Shown: positions 4,044 to 8,797 of the stretch, one piece after another
Numbering within the stretch: position 1 is the stretch's first letter
How the letters are laid out: each line of letters starts with the position of its first letter
Source: an uncultured Alphaproteobacteria bacterium
GTDB lineage: Bacteria; Pseudomonadota; Alphaproteobacteria; RF32; CAG-239
Direction: 5' to 3'
Assembly: GCA_944392255.1 (NCBI GenBank)
Contig: CALXVY010000015.1
Coordinates: 1-35,826 of the forward strand
Length of the DNA stretch: 35,826 nt
Program-made: the position numbers and the translations under genes
The notes under the pieces: model-generated
What the model saw: the letters and a program-made list of their open reading frames with translations, nothing else
Told to the model about the DNA's origin: nothing
Database searches by the model: none

Positions 4044-4107
4044 ATTGCTTTTTTTCTTACTTTTACTTATATTTTGGGCGAAATATTTATCATTAAATTT
4101 TAAGTAT

Positions 4108-4827
4108 ATGGAAAATTATTATTTTTGGTTATCTGCTTTTGGCAGAAAAAAAATTTTGTTACGAACATTTGTAAAATCTTGGAAATGGACACTTCCGGCT
4201 TTGTTAGCTGCCGGATTGGGGGATTTTTTACTACACGATACGCTTAAAGCCGCTCCCTTTAATGCTTTGTTATCTTTATTGACTTCTTTTAGCTTGTTTG
4301 TCGTTGTCAAATATAAAGATAAACTTCAAAAGAAAAATCTTTTTCGGGCAGCTTATACGGCAGCTTCGGCTATCATTCTGTTTTGGATAATGATAAGTCT
4401 CGGGTTGCCGAAATTTGGCATTTTATTAAGTCTGGCTTTGGTTTTGTTTTTCATTTCCCCCGTTCTTAATTATCTGCCGCTTAAGTTATCTAAAGAAAAA
4501 ATAATGCTTCCTATTTGGGCTTTGATAATATTGTCGCTGGTTATTGATTTTATTAATTTGTTTAACGGAGATTTTACTTGTCGTTTTGCTTCGTTTGCCT
4601 TTTGTTTGGGCTTTATGTTATTTAATGCTTTGGAGCTCAAACAAATGGATAAAGATTTGCAATATGGCTTAACAAAAGAAGAAATAAAAAAGATGACGGA
4701 TGATTGGTGCTTCGATATTTCTGTCAATTTCATCGGAATGATTTGTTTTGCTGAGGCGGTCCGTCTGGTGGCAAAAATGATTTCAAATGTTCCGGTCAAA
4801 CAAGAAATTAAAAAAGCTGCTTCTTAA
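4108..4827 (+). CDS. Polytopic membrane protein, possible divergent Bax-inhibitor-1-like (first of three)
   Basis: This 239-residue protein has about seven hydrophobic segments. I chose the ATG at 4108. The longer open frame begins with a TTG inside the T-run of the eno terminator, so it cannot be the real start. The C-terminal pattern is a membrane helix ending LFNALELKQM, a short polar stretch, then ISVNFIGMICFAEAVRLV. This resembles the Bax inhibitor-1/YccA layout (a conserved polar position, a charged linker, then a last helix ending in an Arg-Leu-type motif), but the resemblance is weak. No Shine-Dalgarno sequence is visible. It is the first of three same-strand membrane genes with similar architecture. 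Role unknown. Confidence 0.72.
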   Translation: MENYYFWLSAFGRKKILLRTFVKSWKWTLPALLAAGLGDFLLHDTLKAAPFNALLSLLTSFSLFVVVKYKDKLQKKNLFRAAYTAASAIILFWIMISLGLPKFGILLSLALVLFFISPVLNYLPLKLSKEKIMLPIWALIILSLVIDFINLFNGDFTCRFASFAFCLGFMLFNALELKQMDKDLQYGLTKEEIKKMTDDWCFDISVNFIGMICFAEAVRLVAKMISNVPVKQEIKKAAS

Positions 4828-4844
4828 TGAAACAGCTTTTTTTT
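4811..4844 (+). terminator. Rho-independent terminator overlapping the end of the first membrane gene
   Basis: The stem AAAAAGCTG / CAGCTTTTT extends inward by TTC/GAA and is followed by a T-run. The left arm lies inside the last codons and the stop codon sits in the loop region. Confidence 0.8.
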
Positions 4845-4910
4845 ATTGCTTTTTAGACAAAATTTCATTATATATTCCTTGTCATTGTATAATTATATAA
4901 ATTTAAGCTT

Positions 4911-5624
4911 ATGGAAATTATTGAAAAAAAGAACAAATCTTTTCCTTTTATGGGATTAATTGTGTTTGAAAGTTTGATTATGTTTTTATGTTCTATTCTC
5001 TGCGGAGGTGTTATTTATACCTATTTTCCGCATTGGGTAGATACACAATTTCTTTTCTGCACAAAGGCCAGTATAATAACAATTTGCTTATTTATTTGGC
5101 TTTTACTTTATCCTAAATTTATTTGTTCCAAAGTTTGGGGGTTGATTTTGATTACCTTTTTGGGCGGGATTTTGTTTTCTGTCTTTTTTAGTTATTATGG
5201 AGCAAAATTTTGCCTCATTGGTTCTCTGATATCTTGCTTAATATTTTTTGCCGGTTTGGGTATTTGCAAATGTTGGGCAAAAAAAATGTCCTTATCTCTA
5301 TTTCTCAATTTCTTTGTGGGAATTTTGATTTTGACTTTTTTACATTATATATATACGGCCTACCGTGCTCAAAATATTATAGTCTGCGGCCCATTGTACA
5401 CGGCTTTTGTTATGACTGCTTTGTTGCATCTGGTTTTTGTATTTTCACATAAAAACGAGATTATTCATAAGATTACTTCTTCTAATGAAAAAATGATGCA
5501 AAACAGATATGTTATTTTCTTTTATCTTAATTTGCTGGCTTTGGCTCCTTTCGAAGAAGCATCCCGTACTGTGCTGCTGGCTTTTTTTGCCTTTATTCAA
5601 CTTTTTCTTACTCAAAAACTATAA
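4911..5624 (+). CDS. Polytopic membrane protein, possible divergent Bax-inhibitor-1-like (second of three)
   Basis: This 237-residue, strongly hydrophobic protein has about seven predicted membrane segments after a short charged N-terminus (MEIIEKKNKSF). The segment around residues 164-186 (YTAFVMTALLHLVFVFSHK) and the last helix (YVIFFYLNLLALAPFEEASRTVLL) follow the order of the conserved late helices of the Bax inhibitor-1/YccA family. Sequence conservation is too low for a firm call. It has no Shine-Dalgarno sequence and starts with ATGGAAA like its two neighbours. It is separated from the upstream gene by a terminator, and only 3 bases separate its stop from the third gene, so genes two and three form one unit. 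Confidence 0.72.
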   Translation: MEIIEKKNKSFPFMGLIVFESLIMFLCSILCGGVIYTYFPHWVDTQFLFCTKASIITICLFIWLLLYPKFICSKVWGLILITFLGGILFSVFFSYYGAKFCLIGSLISCLIFFAGLGICKCWAKKMSLSLFLNFFVGILILTFLHYIYTAYRAQNIIVCGPLYTAFVMTALLHLVFVFSHKNEIIHKITSSNEKMMQNRYVIFFYLNLLALAPFEEASRTVLLAFFAFIQLFLTQKL

Positions 5625-5627
5625 ATT

Positions 5628-6362
5628 ATGGAAAACTTTGTTTTAACTAAAAAAGATTGTCGTAATATCTATCTGAAAATCTATTTTTTGATTGTGCAAT
5701 TAGCTCTGCTCAATTTTGTTTTAGCCTATATAATGACCTATGTTGATAATATCAATATTTGGTTTAACGCTTATTCGCCAAAAACACAAGATATTCAAGT
5801 TGCCCCTTGGGTGATTTTGTTGAGCTCTGTCTCTATAGTTTTAGTCATTACTTATTACTTTTGTGCACAATCCGGAGCTGTTTTTAAGATGACATTTATA
5901 AACTTATTAAACATTTTTCTTTCCCTGCAAACTCATATGCAAATGAAACTTTTGGGCTGGAAATTTGTTTTGCTCTGTTTTGGATTTTCTTTATTTTTGT
6001 TAGGGTTGGCAATGTTTGCTGGATCTACTGAAAAAAAAGACTATCGAAAATATTATCCCAAAATGCATTTGTGCTTGGCGATTATGTTTTTTGTTTATCT
6101 TTTGTTTGGTATTGTTAACACATCTATTATTTACTGGATGGATTTGGTTCTAATTGCGCTTGGAGCCTTTTTAACTTTTTTAGAAATTCAAGACTTGCGT
6201 TTTAACCTTCCTAAAGTACGTAGCCAACAACATTTGGATAATCTTCTATATCCTTGTATCATGAATATGTTTGGAAATTTTTTACTGATGAGCTTTTTCC
6301 TAAAAAGTGATAAAATATTTATTAAATTTTTCTCACAGCAAAAATTATCCATCAGAAAATGA
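5628..6362 (+). CDS. Polytopic membrane protein, possible divergent Bax-inhibitor-1-like (third of three)
   Basis: This 244-residue protein has about seven hydrophobic segments. The start is 3 bases after the previous stop, so the two genes are almost certainly cotranscribed and perhaps translationally coupled. The C-terminal third (ALGAFLTFLEIQDLRFNL, polar linker, then PCIMNMFGNFLLMSFFL) mirrors the same region of the protein at 4108 (CLGFMLFNALELKQMDKDL, polar linker, then a last helix). This suggests the cluster arose by duplication. The function is unknown. A Bax-inhibitor-like ion-leak or membrane-protease regulator is only one possibility. A strong terminator follows. Confidence 0.72.
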   Translation: MENFVLTKKDCRNIYLKIYFLIVQLALLNFVLAYIMTYVDNINIWFNAYSPKTQDIQVAPWVILLSSVSIVLVITYYFCAQSGAVFKMTFINLLNIFLSLQTHMQMKLLGWKFVLLCFGFSLFLLGLAMFAGSTEKKDYRKYYPKMHLCLAIMFFVYLLFGIVNTSIIYWMDLVLIALGAFLTFLEIQDLRFNLPKVRSQQHLDNLLYPCIMNMFGNFLLMSFFLKSDKIFIKFFSQQKLSIRK

Positions 6363-6368
6363 TTGCTT

Positions 6369-6402
6369 AAAGCTCTGAATATTTATATTCAGAGCTTTTT
6401 TA
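6369..6402 (+). terminator. Rho-independent terminator after the membrane-protein cluster
   Basis: A 14-bp near-perfect inverted repeat (AAAGCTCTGAATAT / ATATTCAGAGCTTT) is followed by T residues. It begins 7 bases past the stop codon. Confidence 0.9.
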
Positions 6403-6420
6403 TTAGTTGCCTTACAGAAA

Positions 6421-6540
6421 ACCCCGAGTTTACTCGGGGCTGAATGCCAAGGTGTTGGAACAACACCGCTCCACGCCAACGAGCGTGGTCAAACCGTAAG
6501 GTTTGTAGCTGTTATAGAACCCCCAGTTTACTGGGGGATA
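6421..6540 (+). mobile_element. Transposase-less IS200/IS605-like remnant with omega-RNA-like hairpin array
   Basis: Five hairpins lie in 120 bases. They are CCCCGAG-TTTA-CTCGGGG (6422-6439), GGTGTT/AACACC (6451-6467), CCACGC/GCGTGG (6471-6488), AAACC-GTAA-GGTTT with a GNRA-type loop (6491-6504), and CCCCCAG-TTTA-CTGGGGG (6520-6537). The first and last share the core AGTTTACT and the TTTA loop, like the paired subterminal palindromes of IS200/IS605 elements. The inner hairpins ending in a C-rich/G-rich hairpin are reminiscent of the 3' end of TnpB guide (omega) RNAs. No tnpA or tnpB reading frame is present. Its GC content is much higher than the flanks. The resemblance comes from recall of the family and has not been checked by search. 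It could instead be an unrelated structured RNA. Confidence 0.5.
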
Positions 6541-6569
6541 TCTATATATGTAAAAATATCTTTTTTTTG

Positions 6570-6603: not shown

Positions 6604-6809
6604 GGATTATTTATCCAAGGGCGTCGAAACCCTTTAAAATGAAACTGGTCGAGATTGTGCATGCGACCATAAATATTATGCCGATTTCTGCCTTATGGGC
6701 GGATGTCGGTGAATAAAGCGTTCGCTAAATAAGCCGAGCCGCTTGTAGTTTCATTTACGGTTTTCGAACATCCGCCCACCTTTCTTTTTACAGAAAAGTG
6801 GTTTTTTTT
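6604..6809 (+). ncRNA. Structured leader RNA or small RNA upstream of the glycan operon
   Basis: A long broken helix closes this region. GGGCG (6619-6623) pairs with CGCCC (6773-6777). CGAAACC (6625-6631) pairs with GGTTTTCG (6759-6766) with one bulge. AAATGAAACT (6637-6646) pairs perfectly with AGTTTCATTT (6747-6756). Inside lie GGTCG/CGACC (6647-6668), CCGA/TCGG (6681-6709) and AAGCG/CGCTT (6716-6744). GGGCGGATGT (6697-6706) is also a perfect complement of ACATCCGCCC (6768-6777), which competes with the outer stem. A terminator (6776-6809) follows directly, and the next ATG is 27 bases further on. The layout fits a terminator-controlled leader (riboswitch or attenuator) or a stand-alone small RNA. 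I recognise no known class. No convincing protein is encoded here. Confidence 0.5.
6776..6809 (+). terminator. Rho-independent terminator ahead of the GT29 gene
   Basis: CCAC-C-TTTCT (6776-6785) pairs with AGAAA-A-GTGG (6792-6801) with one mismatch, followed by eight T residues. It sits between the structured RNA and the AAGGA ribosome binding site of the next gene. A terminator here, at the 5' rather than the 3' end of a gene, suggests regulated read-through. Confidence 0.75.
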
Positions 6810-6836
6810 GTAATTAATTAAAATAAGGATGTTGAA

Positions 6837-7847
6837 ATGAAATTTTATTCTAAAACTCGATATGGAAATAAATTTATTATTTCTATCTGTGGCATAAAAT
6901 TTAAATATAAAATCAAAAGCAATACTTTCTTAGACAACTTGTTCAAAGAATGGCAAACCGAGTTTCAACCGCTTTTGCTTGAACAAAAATTAAGAACTTT
7001 AATTCAATCTCCCTCTTTGCTCAAAGACGAAAATAAAGAGATATTCTTAGTTTTTGCATCTACTTTAATTGAAAATGATAAAGCTGATGAAGCGAAAGAA
7101 ATTTTATCTAAATATATAAAAAATTATGGCTTAGAAGCAATTTCTTATTATCCTTTGGTGTCTGACTTGGCTTGTAAAATTGGTTACGACGATGAAGAAA
7201 TAAAAAAATGTGCTCACGTTTGGAATATCTTAGAACAAAATCGCATTAATGCATCCCTTGAAAACTATCTTAAAAATAAAAAAATTGCTATTGTTGGAAA
7301 TTCTCCCAATTTGGTTGGCAAGCAAAAAGGAACAGAAATTGATAGTGCTGATACTGTTATTCGCTTTAATAACTTTTCTACACAAAATTTTGAAAAAGAT
7401 TATGGGGTCAAAACCAACATTTGGGTGTGCTGTCAAGCCGGAGATATTATTAATCGTTCCTTAGATGAAATTAATAAAATGGACTATATTCTCTACAATG
7501 TTGATTTAAAACATACTAAGTTGCAACCCAAATGCCTGAACTATATATATCAAAACCTTAAATCCAATACACCCATTTCTTATATCGGGGACGTGTTTAA
7601 AAAAGATCTTAAACAATATGGTATTGTTTATCCTTCCTCCGGATTATCCGCACTTTATCACTTTCATAAATTGTGTCAGCTTTCTAAAAACAATATTTAT
7701 GGCTTTTCTTTTCTGGAAAATTCTACCAACTACTATGATCATTATTTTCAAAAAAGATCTGCTCATAAAATTAAAAAATTTTCTAAAAACGGACATCATA
7801 ATTTTGAATTAGAAAACGTTGTTTTAAGAAATATTTTTGAGGTATAA
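6837..7847 (+). CDS. GT29-type sialyltransferase-like glycosyltransferase
   Basis: This 336-residue protein carries all three hallmark regions of glycosyltransferase family 29. The sialylmotif-L-like segment spans 149-180 (KIAIVGNSPNLVGK, then IDSADTVIRFNNF). The sialylmotif-S-like segment spans 264-291 (YPSSGLSALYHFHKLC, then IYGF). A motif-VS pattern H321-x4-E326 follows near the C-terminus. The N-terminal NKFIISICGIKFKYK resembles a short leader segment seen in several lipopolysaccharide glycosyltransferases, and residues 30-140 are helical and repeat-like. There is no signal peptide, so it probably acts at the cytoplasmic face on a surface glycan. The donor may be CMP-sialic acid or a related nonulosonate, but this is not proven. 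AAGGA lies 7 bases before the ATG. The next gene starts 2 bases after the stop. Confidence 0.85.
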   Translation: MKFYSKTRYGNKFIISICGIKFKYKIKSNTFLDNLFKEWQTEFQPLLLEQKLRTLIQSPSLLKDENKEIFLVFASTLIENDKADEAKEILSKYIKNYGLEAISYYPLVSDLACKIGYDDEEIKKCAHVWNILEQNRINASLENYLKNKKIAIVGNSPNLVGKQKGTEIDSADTVIRFNNFSTQNFEKDYGVKTNIWVCCQAGDIINRSLDEINKMDYILYNVDLKHTKLQPKCLNYIYQNLKSNTPISYIGDVFKKDLKQYGIVYPSSGLSALYHFHKLCQLSKNNIYGFSFLENSTNYYDHYFQKRSAHKIKKFSKNGHHNFELENVVLRNIFEV

Positions 7848-7849
7848 TC

Positions 7850-8797
7850 ATGCTTAAAGCGGCTTTATTAAACGATACGACGCGCGATTTTGGTCATTGG
7901 GGATGTATCCATGTTGTGCAAAATATAAATAATCTTTGTAAACAAAATAATTGTGAAATTGTTTTTTCTGATACGGATTGTCAAGCTGACTTTAATCAAG
8001 CCGAATTTTGCCAAAAAATAAAATCTGCCGATATCGTCATCTTAAACGGCGAAGGTACTCTGCATGATGATGCCGGAACACTCTGGCTCGAAAAGGCAAA
8101 ACTCGCCAAAGAACTTAACAAAAAAGTGTTTTTGGTTAATGCCGTTTGGCAAAATAACCTCCAAAATAAAAAATATTTATCTGTCTTTGACGCTTGTTCC
8201 TTTAGAGAATCTTTTTCTTACCAAGAAGCTATAAAAGATGGTTGTACGAATGCCTTTAACGTTCCTGATTTGTCTTTTTATTCTCTACCCGAATTAAAAA
8301 AACTGGATTATCATCCTTATAAAAATTTAGCAGTTATAGATAGCGTAAAAAAGAATACTACGGCAGAGCTGATTAAAATTTCTAAAAAGGAAAATTGTGA
8401 TTTATTTTTTATGTATCACAAACATTGGCAAAAGCAAAAAAGAAACTGGCGTTATCTTCCGGCTCTTTTTATGCATCGTCTTCATTTTTTGCATTTAGAG
8501 AACGCTGAACAACTCCTTCCATACAAAGCTTTAATTTCCGGACGTTTTCACGCTTGCTGTATGGCTTTAATGCTTAAACTTCCTACTTTTGCCATTGAAT
8601 CAAATACATGGAAAATAAAATCTATGTTTCAAGATGCAAGATTAGATTCTGAATTTATATTTGAAAATCCGCAAAGCGCTTTATCTGCCTATCTAAACGC
8701 TTCCGATGAAACTTTCAAAAAATGGCAAATTAATAGTGCAGATTTTACGGAAGATGCTTATAAAAAAATTCATTCTTTTTGGAATTCTTTATTCTAA
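7850..8797 (+). CDS. Polysaccharide pyruvyl transferase family protein
   Basis: This 315-residue protein has the features of the CsaB/WcaK-type pyruvyl transferase family, which adds ketal pyruvate to sugars of surface polysaccharides. It shows NGEGTLHDD (66-74), close to the family's usual GGG-type loop. Near the C-terminus it has SGRFHACCMALMLKLPTFAIES (starting at residue 230) followed by NTWKI, matching the conserved R-x-H-x-x-I/C-A and nucleotide/phosphate-side motifs. It has no signal peptide or membrane segment. GAGG lies at the end of the preceding gene 7 bases before this ATG, so translation is likely coupled. Together the pair probably decorates a capsule, lipopolysaccharide or exopolysaccharide terminus. 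Some members of this family have other sugar-transfer roles. Confidence 0.85.
   Translation: MLKAALLNDTTRDFGHWGCIHVVQNINNLCKQNNCEIVFSDTDCQADFNQAEFCQKIKSADIVILNGEGTLHDDAGTLWLEKAKLAKELNKKVFLVNAVWQNNLQNKKYLSVFDACSFRESFSYQEAIKDGCTNAFNVPDLSFYSLPELKKLDYHPYKNLAVIDSVKKNTTAELIKISKKENCDLFFMYHKHWQKQKRNWRYLPALFMHRLHFLHLENAEQLLPYKALISGRFHACCMALMLKLPTFAIESNTWKIKSMFQDARLDSEFIFENPQSALSAYLNASDETFKKWQINSADFTEDAYKKIHSFWNSLF

Follow-up and report, generated by a model that had tools for sequence, protein, structure and literature searches.

What kind of RNA lies directly ahead of a sialyltransferase-like gene in the genome of an uncultured alphaproteobacterium, and what it may control, is the question raised by a leader of about 210 nt found in the window (the whole stretch of DNA analysed, 35,826 nucleotides). 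In the initial annotation, made from the letters alone, the leader was described as having the layout of a riboswitch or attenuator of no recognised class, ahead of a sialyltransferase/pyruvyl transferase operon.

Fold and parts of the leader

The region 6604-6836 has a minimum free energy of -74.1 kcal/mol, compared with -51.5 +/- 4.0 kcal/mol for shuffled sequences (z -5.64, 0 of 200 shuffles as good), and the stepped long-range helix first described there (6619-6646 with 6747-6777) is found at exactly these positions as part of the minimum-energy fold. The alternative 10-bp pairing of 6697-6706 GGGCGGAUGU with 6768-6777 ACAUCCGCCC is perfect in the window copy. The rho-independent terminator, also described earlier, is present about 30 nt 5' of the start codon, and a simple scanner overlooked it because of one mismatch; both the stem and the U-run are found again in the aligned relatives, where one pair varies between A-U, G-C and G-U. 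The two bases that the terminator shares with the long helix are no evident antiterminator, as the overlap with the terminator stem is about the same for either fold, two or three bases only. Four features had been overlooked: the 5' hairpin P0, the competing helices that share strand 6706-6710, the complementarity of GGAUGUU (6827-6833) to AACAUCC (6767-6773), and the multi-copy nature of the leader. In P0 the hairpin and its position are kept while the sequence is different in every copy (a stem of at least 6 in 90% of copies vs 15% of shuffled ones). The parts are collected in Table 1.

Table 1. Features of the leader and of the operon behind it, in window positions.
Feature	Positions	Strand	Remarks
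P0, 5' hairpin	6604-6616	+	directly 5' of conserved AGGGC
Outer strand of stepped helix, GGGCG	6619-6623	+	pairs with CGCCC (6773-6777 region); 96% of cells paired, nearly invariant
a1	6624-6631	+	pairs with a' 6759-6767; variants always matched to a'
b1 (variable address)	6637-6646	+	pairs with b' 6747-6756; double changes at nearly all pairs
Hairpin H2	6647-6668	+	covaries; 97% of cells paired
Hairpin HA of state 1 (CCGAUUUCUGCC / GGGCGGAUGUCGG)	6681-6709	+	covaries (helix 6)
sRNA-Xcc1/C4-like core of state 2	6697-6777	+	Rfam RF02221 match, 36.9 bits, 6697-6785
State 2 helices	P1 6697-6706/6768-6777; M 6706-6710/6733-6737; P3 6737-6741/6758-6762	+	b' inside P3 loop
b' (variable address)	6747-6756	+	own vs crossed complementarity; address comparisons
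a'	6759-6767	+	matched to a1
AACAUCC	6767-6773	+	partner is either P1 5' strand or ribosome site
Intrinsic terminator	6776-6809	+	from sequence; recurs in relatives with covariation
Ribosome site AAGGAUGUU	6825-6833	+	complementary to AACAUCC
GT29 sialyltransferase-like gene	6837-7847	+	PF00777, E 2.9e-21
Polysaccharide pyruvyl transferase-like gene	7850-8797	+	PF04230, E 7e-13

Just 5' of the leader lies a 134-bp repeat with two G+C-rich hairpins (6412-6545), of which the genome holds nine more copies at 99-100% identity and one at 73%, and which looks like the end or a short relic of a mobile element. Still further upstream, three consecutive ORFs without a Pfam match (260, 237 and 244 aa; 4045-6362) are closed by a strong terminator-like hairpin at 6369-6398.

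The leader family and its two folds

When the leader was used as a query against its own genome, five more strong copies turned up on other contigs, each immediately 5' of a different gene (six strong copies including that of the window), and a covariance model built from 36 copies added one weak copy. A pattern taken from the conserved 3' part found relatives in 16 of 53 genomes, the own genome included, and also matched many named gut Alphaproteobacteria assemblies, which probably correspond to the GTDB order RF32; matches in Neisseria, Comamonas, Nocardia, Bifidobacterium and others were dropped as chance hits because the core was absent, and the viral contigs searched for the core pattern contained none. 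With the covariance model, matches were obtained in 136 of 152 genomes of the own taxonomic family and in 19 of 289 drawn from the class, and single genomes hold many of them (59 in G137, 31 in G109, 30 in G104 and 20 in G105). The leader is a member of a large, apparently unreported family of probable two-state RNA switches in gut Alphaproteobacteria.

A few members stand apart. In L102, an element near the 3' end of its locus, b1 matches one family member and b' another, leaving b1 and b' unpaired, and this copy is possibly a chimera produced by recombination or assembly. Five others (L035, L052, L064, L077 and L097) form a subgroup with the common address AAGCAAT/ATTGCTT, some of them without a clear terminator or adjacent gene, and could be stand-alone or older forms. 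One family copy lies near phage tail-like genes.

In the first of the two folds (state 1), the stepped helix is built in the order GGGCG/CGCCC, a1/a' and variable b1/b'. Among 87 copies, the a1/a' strands were UCGAAA/UUUCGA in 48, UCAGAA/UUCUGA in 38 and UCAAAA/UUUUGA in 1, always matched and never mixed (87 of 87); in the expanded genomes, where more variants occur, all 94 of 94 copies were matched. The complementarity of b1 to the b' of its own copy has a mean of 9.1 nt, compared with 4.2 nt to the b' of other copies. For state 1 in the seed alignment, which was made without structure, 91.9% of cells are paired and 139 double changes were counted vs 47 in shuffled alignments, while in the 94 copies from three expanded genomes, an alignment that was fitted to the structure, the values are 93.8% and 775 vs 211. 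The search for homologues and covariation that had been suggested as a check of the leader was therefore positive on both counts.

The second fold (state 2), which resembles that of sRNA-Xcc1, is nearly invariant in the seed alignment. In a larger set its double-change cells number 73 vs 22 shuffled, and the M helix is paired in 470 of 470 cells, with double changes at all five pairs. The inner P1 pairs are nearly invariant, one of them covarying in another genome (A-U 81, G-C 12), and the third P1 pair is an A.C mismatch in most relatives (29 of 36 unpaired), apparently because this base follows its HA partner, as read from the alignment. The perfect 10-bp alternative stressed earlier is therefore special to the window copy. 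The bases on the 5' side of M also belong to the 3' side of HA, which covaries too. Two mutually exclusive structures are thus both under selection, and by sequence and covariation the leader is one with two mutually exclusive folds, both conserved. This supports the earlier idea of a switch, though with other helices than those emphasised at the time.

Ribosome site, linked genes and addresses

The ribosome-binding region of linked genes has the sequence AAGGAUGUU. The motif GGATGTT is present there in 57 of 83 linked genes, whereas just 2 of 430 remaining ORFs in these loci have it; a stretch of 7 nt or more that can pair with the a'-AACAUCC strand occurs in 73% of linked genes vs 5% of the other ORFs. 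In G109 the 5' strand of P1, the 3' strand of P1 and the ribosome site change in concert (A/U/A in 65 copies, G/C/G in 10), with two exceptions that leave a G-U pair. Energy calculations on the whole transcript place AACAUCC on the ribosome site in four of the six own-genome copies. Most mapped copies have a start codon about 36-56 nt past the anchor, and the linked copies leave little promoter room between terminator and gene; upstream, TATAAT-like hexamers 31-40 nt 5' of the element are weakly enriched (23 seen vs about 13 expected).

A signal-peptide-like start, by a crude rule, was present in 152 of 169 linked ORFs vs 74 of 253 others (Fisher p 1e-37), so that, judged from their sequences, about 90% of the linked genes appear to encode secreted or surface-bound proteins. 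The BspA-type LRR domain is the commonest in a set of 85 different linked proteins (30), outer-membrane barrels, autotransporters and PEGA are also among the commonest domains, and GT29 sialyltransferases number two; lipoproteins, a methylase and glycosyltransferases are likewise preceded by copies. In G137 (L216-L222, L263-L309) many linked genes are paralogues that encode BspA-type LRR surface proteins, and every one of them has an addressed leader of its own. A sensor of sialic acid or glycans was rejected because the other copies precede unrelated genes, and the window operon of GT29 and pyruvyl transferase genes fits the surface theme and not sugar-sensing.

Within a genome, nearly every copy has its own combination of a and b: 54 of 54 copies are distinct in G137, 24 of 25 in G104 and 15 of 15 in G109, although metagenome assemblies may merge or lose identical copies, a caveat for these address counts. 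Among 22 pairs of G109 copies with cores at least 95% identical, 0 share b, and their b strands differ almost as much as unrelated b strands do. In the first set, b was at least 90% identical in 0 of 55 same-genome pairs, compared with 4 of 10 between-genome pairs with near-identical cores. Selection against cross-pairing is the simplest reason for this, since a helix kept for its shape only should not change both strands faster than its surroundings, and such selection implies action in trans. Unlike addresses beside cores that are 95-99% identical would thus imply a trans-acting specificity.

Kinship with C4-type RNAs and proposed mechanism

The remark that no known class is recognised in the leader holds in so far as an Rfam scan of the window gave no match above the cut-off; however, its layout is that of C4, and its core matches sRNA-Xcc1 (RF02221) below the gathering cut-off of 53 bits, with E 5e-5 in a whole-genome search and scores of 31-38 bits in five of the six own copies. 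The consensus fold of sRNA-Xcc1, with P1, hairpin 2 (P2/M) and hairpin 3 (P3), and several conserved motifs are common to both cores. sRNA-Xcc1 has been found upstream of symE in Xanthomonas integron cassettes (PMC12444791), and in H. influenzae it is annotated together with ninG in variable regions (PMC11932112). In 20 of 21 sRNA-Xcc1 loci from other genomes we found an upstream a1-b1 that matches the own b'-a' (crossed pairs 15%), and in 16 of 21 another match located around the following gene's ribosome site (crossed pairs 8%). These loci (L188-L212), with a1-b1 in their leader and a2-b2 at the gene that follows, have the C4 layout, while Rfam describes the family as an sRNA only. The annotated record of phage P1 has the order a1, b1, C4 (b' then a'), a2, b2, icd; compared by eye, its sequence from b1 to the core is similar to the corresponding part of the sRNA-Xcc1 loci. 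Because of this phage P1-like order the sRNA-Xcc1 loci look like C4-type modules, and from its sequence the window element looks like a derived branch of them. Unlike the window leader, the sRNA-Xcc1 loci are mostly without a U-run terminator and use a variable a2-b2 at the ribosome site.

The C4 RNA of phages P1 and P7 (RF01695; also c4-2, RF02944) has in common with the leader the order a1, b1, core b'-a' and target at the next ribosome site, as well as a single transcript and a core whose closing P1 stem begins with GG. The C4 trait that b' and a' of the core are complementary to a1 and b1 of the leader was found in the gut Alphaproteobacteria copies. RNase P cleaves C4, whose b' loop masks the ribosome site (PMC5320573); the GG start and the RCC after P1 are compatible, at the level of sequence, with C4-like processing. 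On the other hand, C4 is a phage immunity locus, while the gut leaders are many chromosomal copies before surface genes, possess HA, an additional hairpin at the 5' end and an intrinsic terminator, and pair with the ribosome site through AACAUCC instead of a full a2-b2; at the ribosome site of the gut leaders no copy of a2-b2 was found beyond AACAUCC (no b2 and little a2). The Rfam C4 model itself (RF01695) gave no match to the leader in the own genome, its best hit being 17.5 bits at another place. Acinetobacter baumannii likewise carries many C4-like sRNAs in one genome (Group 1, 21 copies), with a variable a' loop and reads suggesting RNase P processing (PMC5320573), but they are reported as phage-derived with unknown targets, and not described as adjacent surface-gene leaders with matched a1-b1. 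No paper on a C4-like RNA of Alphaproteobacteria turned up in the open-access library searched. In its proposed mode of action the leader is also similar to the CI RNA of phage P4 (seqA/seqB/seqC) and to IsrK of Gifsy-1, both of them short leader RNAs whose target in trans is the read-through transcript of the same locus, CI changing termination and IsrK changing fold and translation (PMC4825925), although these are single phage or prophage loci, unlike the multi-copy gut leaders.

We consider it probable that the leader is a C4-type self-antisense device that controls access to the start site, and probably terminator read-through, of its own gene, the direction and the trigger being those that we infer. 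In state 1, a1-b1 of the 5' part pairs with b'-a' of the 3' part, HA forms and AACAUCC is free; it would then cover the ribosome site and the gene would be off. In state 2, HA opens, the core (P1, M, P3) forms, AACAUCC is locked in P1 and b' is exposed in a loop; the ribosome site would be free and the gene on. The terminator would stop many transcripts and yield short RNAs, and a predicted RNase P cut just before P1 (6697), as in C4, would release a stable core. The short RNA or core of one locus would then set the state, gene by gene, through the a1-b1 of the same-locus read-through transcript, to which pairing in trans is probably limited, as almost no two copies of a genome have the same a and b. 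Constrained folding favours state 1 by 8 to 24 kcal/mol in the whole leader, and switching would thus depend on co-transcriptional folding, on a partner RNA or on cleavage; for an RNA that lacks the 5' part and stops at the terminator, the P1 fold is best or near-best. Control could also have the opposite sign, since the released core of C4 represses and the short RNA of IsrK activates (PMC4825925).

The same two folds could also work within their own transcript only, with the variable helices drifting by compensation and having no role in specificity. Every pairing is possible within one transcript and is strongly favoured when the whole leader is folded, but we find this unlikely, because near-identical cores carry unrelated addresses changed on both strands, no address is common to two G137 copies, and helices that drift neutrally should not change faster than the element around them.

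Much less probable is the riboswitch for a metabolite or sugar nucleotide, with transcription termination, that was the first idea about this locus. The layout that suggested it is real, as exclusive folds and a terminator are present together with conserved internal loops (GAAUAA/AAAUAA), yet nothing points to a small-molecule ligand: the linked genes have no common metabolic theme (BspA-type LRR proteins, lipoproteins, barrels, a methylase and glycosyltransferases), no dedicated antiterminator is seen, and the variation lies mostly in matched pairing addresses, unlike a ligand pocket. That copies of a repetitive mobile element landed before genes by accident, as the high copy number, the unrelated genes downstream, the copy near phage tail-like genes and the possible chimera L102 might suggest, is hardly credible, given that the copies are diverse, without fixed ends or transposase, that a start codon follows soon after the anchor in most mapped copies, and that the structure and the ribosome site are strongly constrained.

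The self-antisense reading would extend, though here we are tentative, to a genome-wide set of orthogonal address-coded switches, in which dozens of surface genes of one bacterium are each turned on or off independently, the self-matched addresses are selected to differ from all others in the cell, and the states may possibly be heritable or phase-variable. In phages, antisense RNAs of the C4 type are known to serve immunity, and in Acinetobacter they are known as what appear to be leftovers; in uncultured gut bacteria such a device seems to have been recruited to regulate surface and secreted proteins on a large scale. For sRNA-Xcc1, the comparison suggests an identity as the core of a C4-type leader module and not a free-standing sRNA. 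If the address reading is true, the gut bacteria would possess a natural orthogonal RNA code by which many genes are independently controlled and whose address pairs diversify between the copies of one genome.
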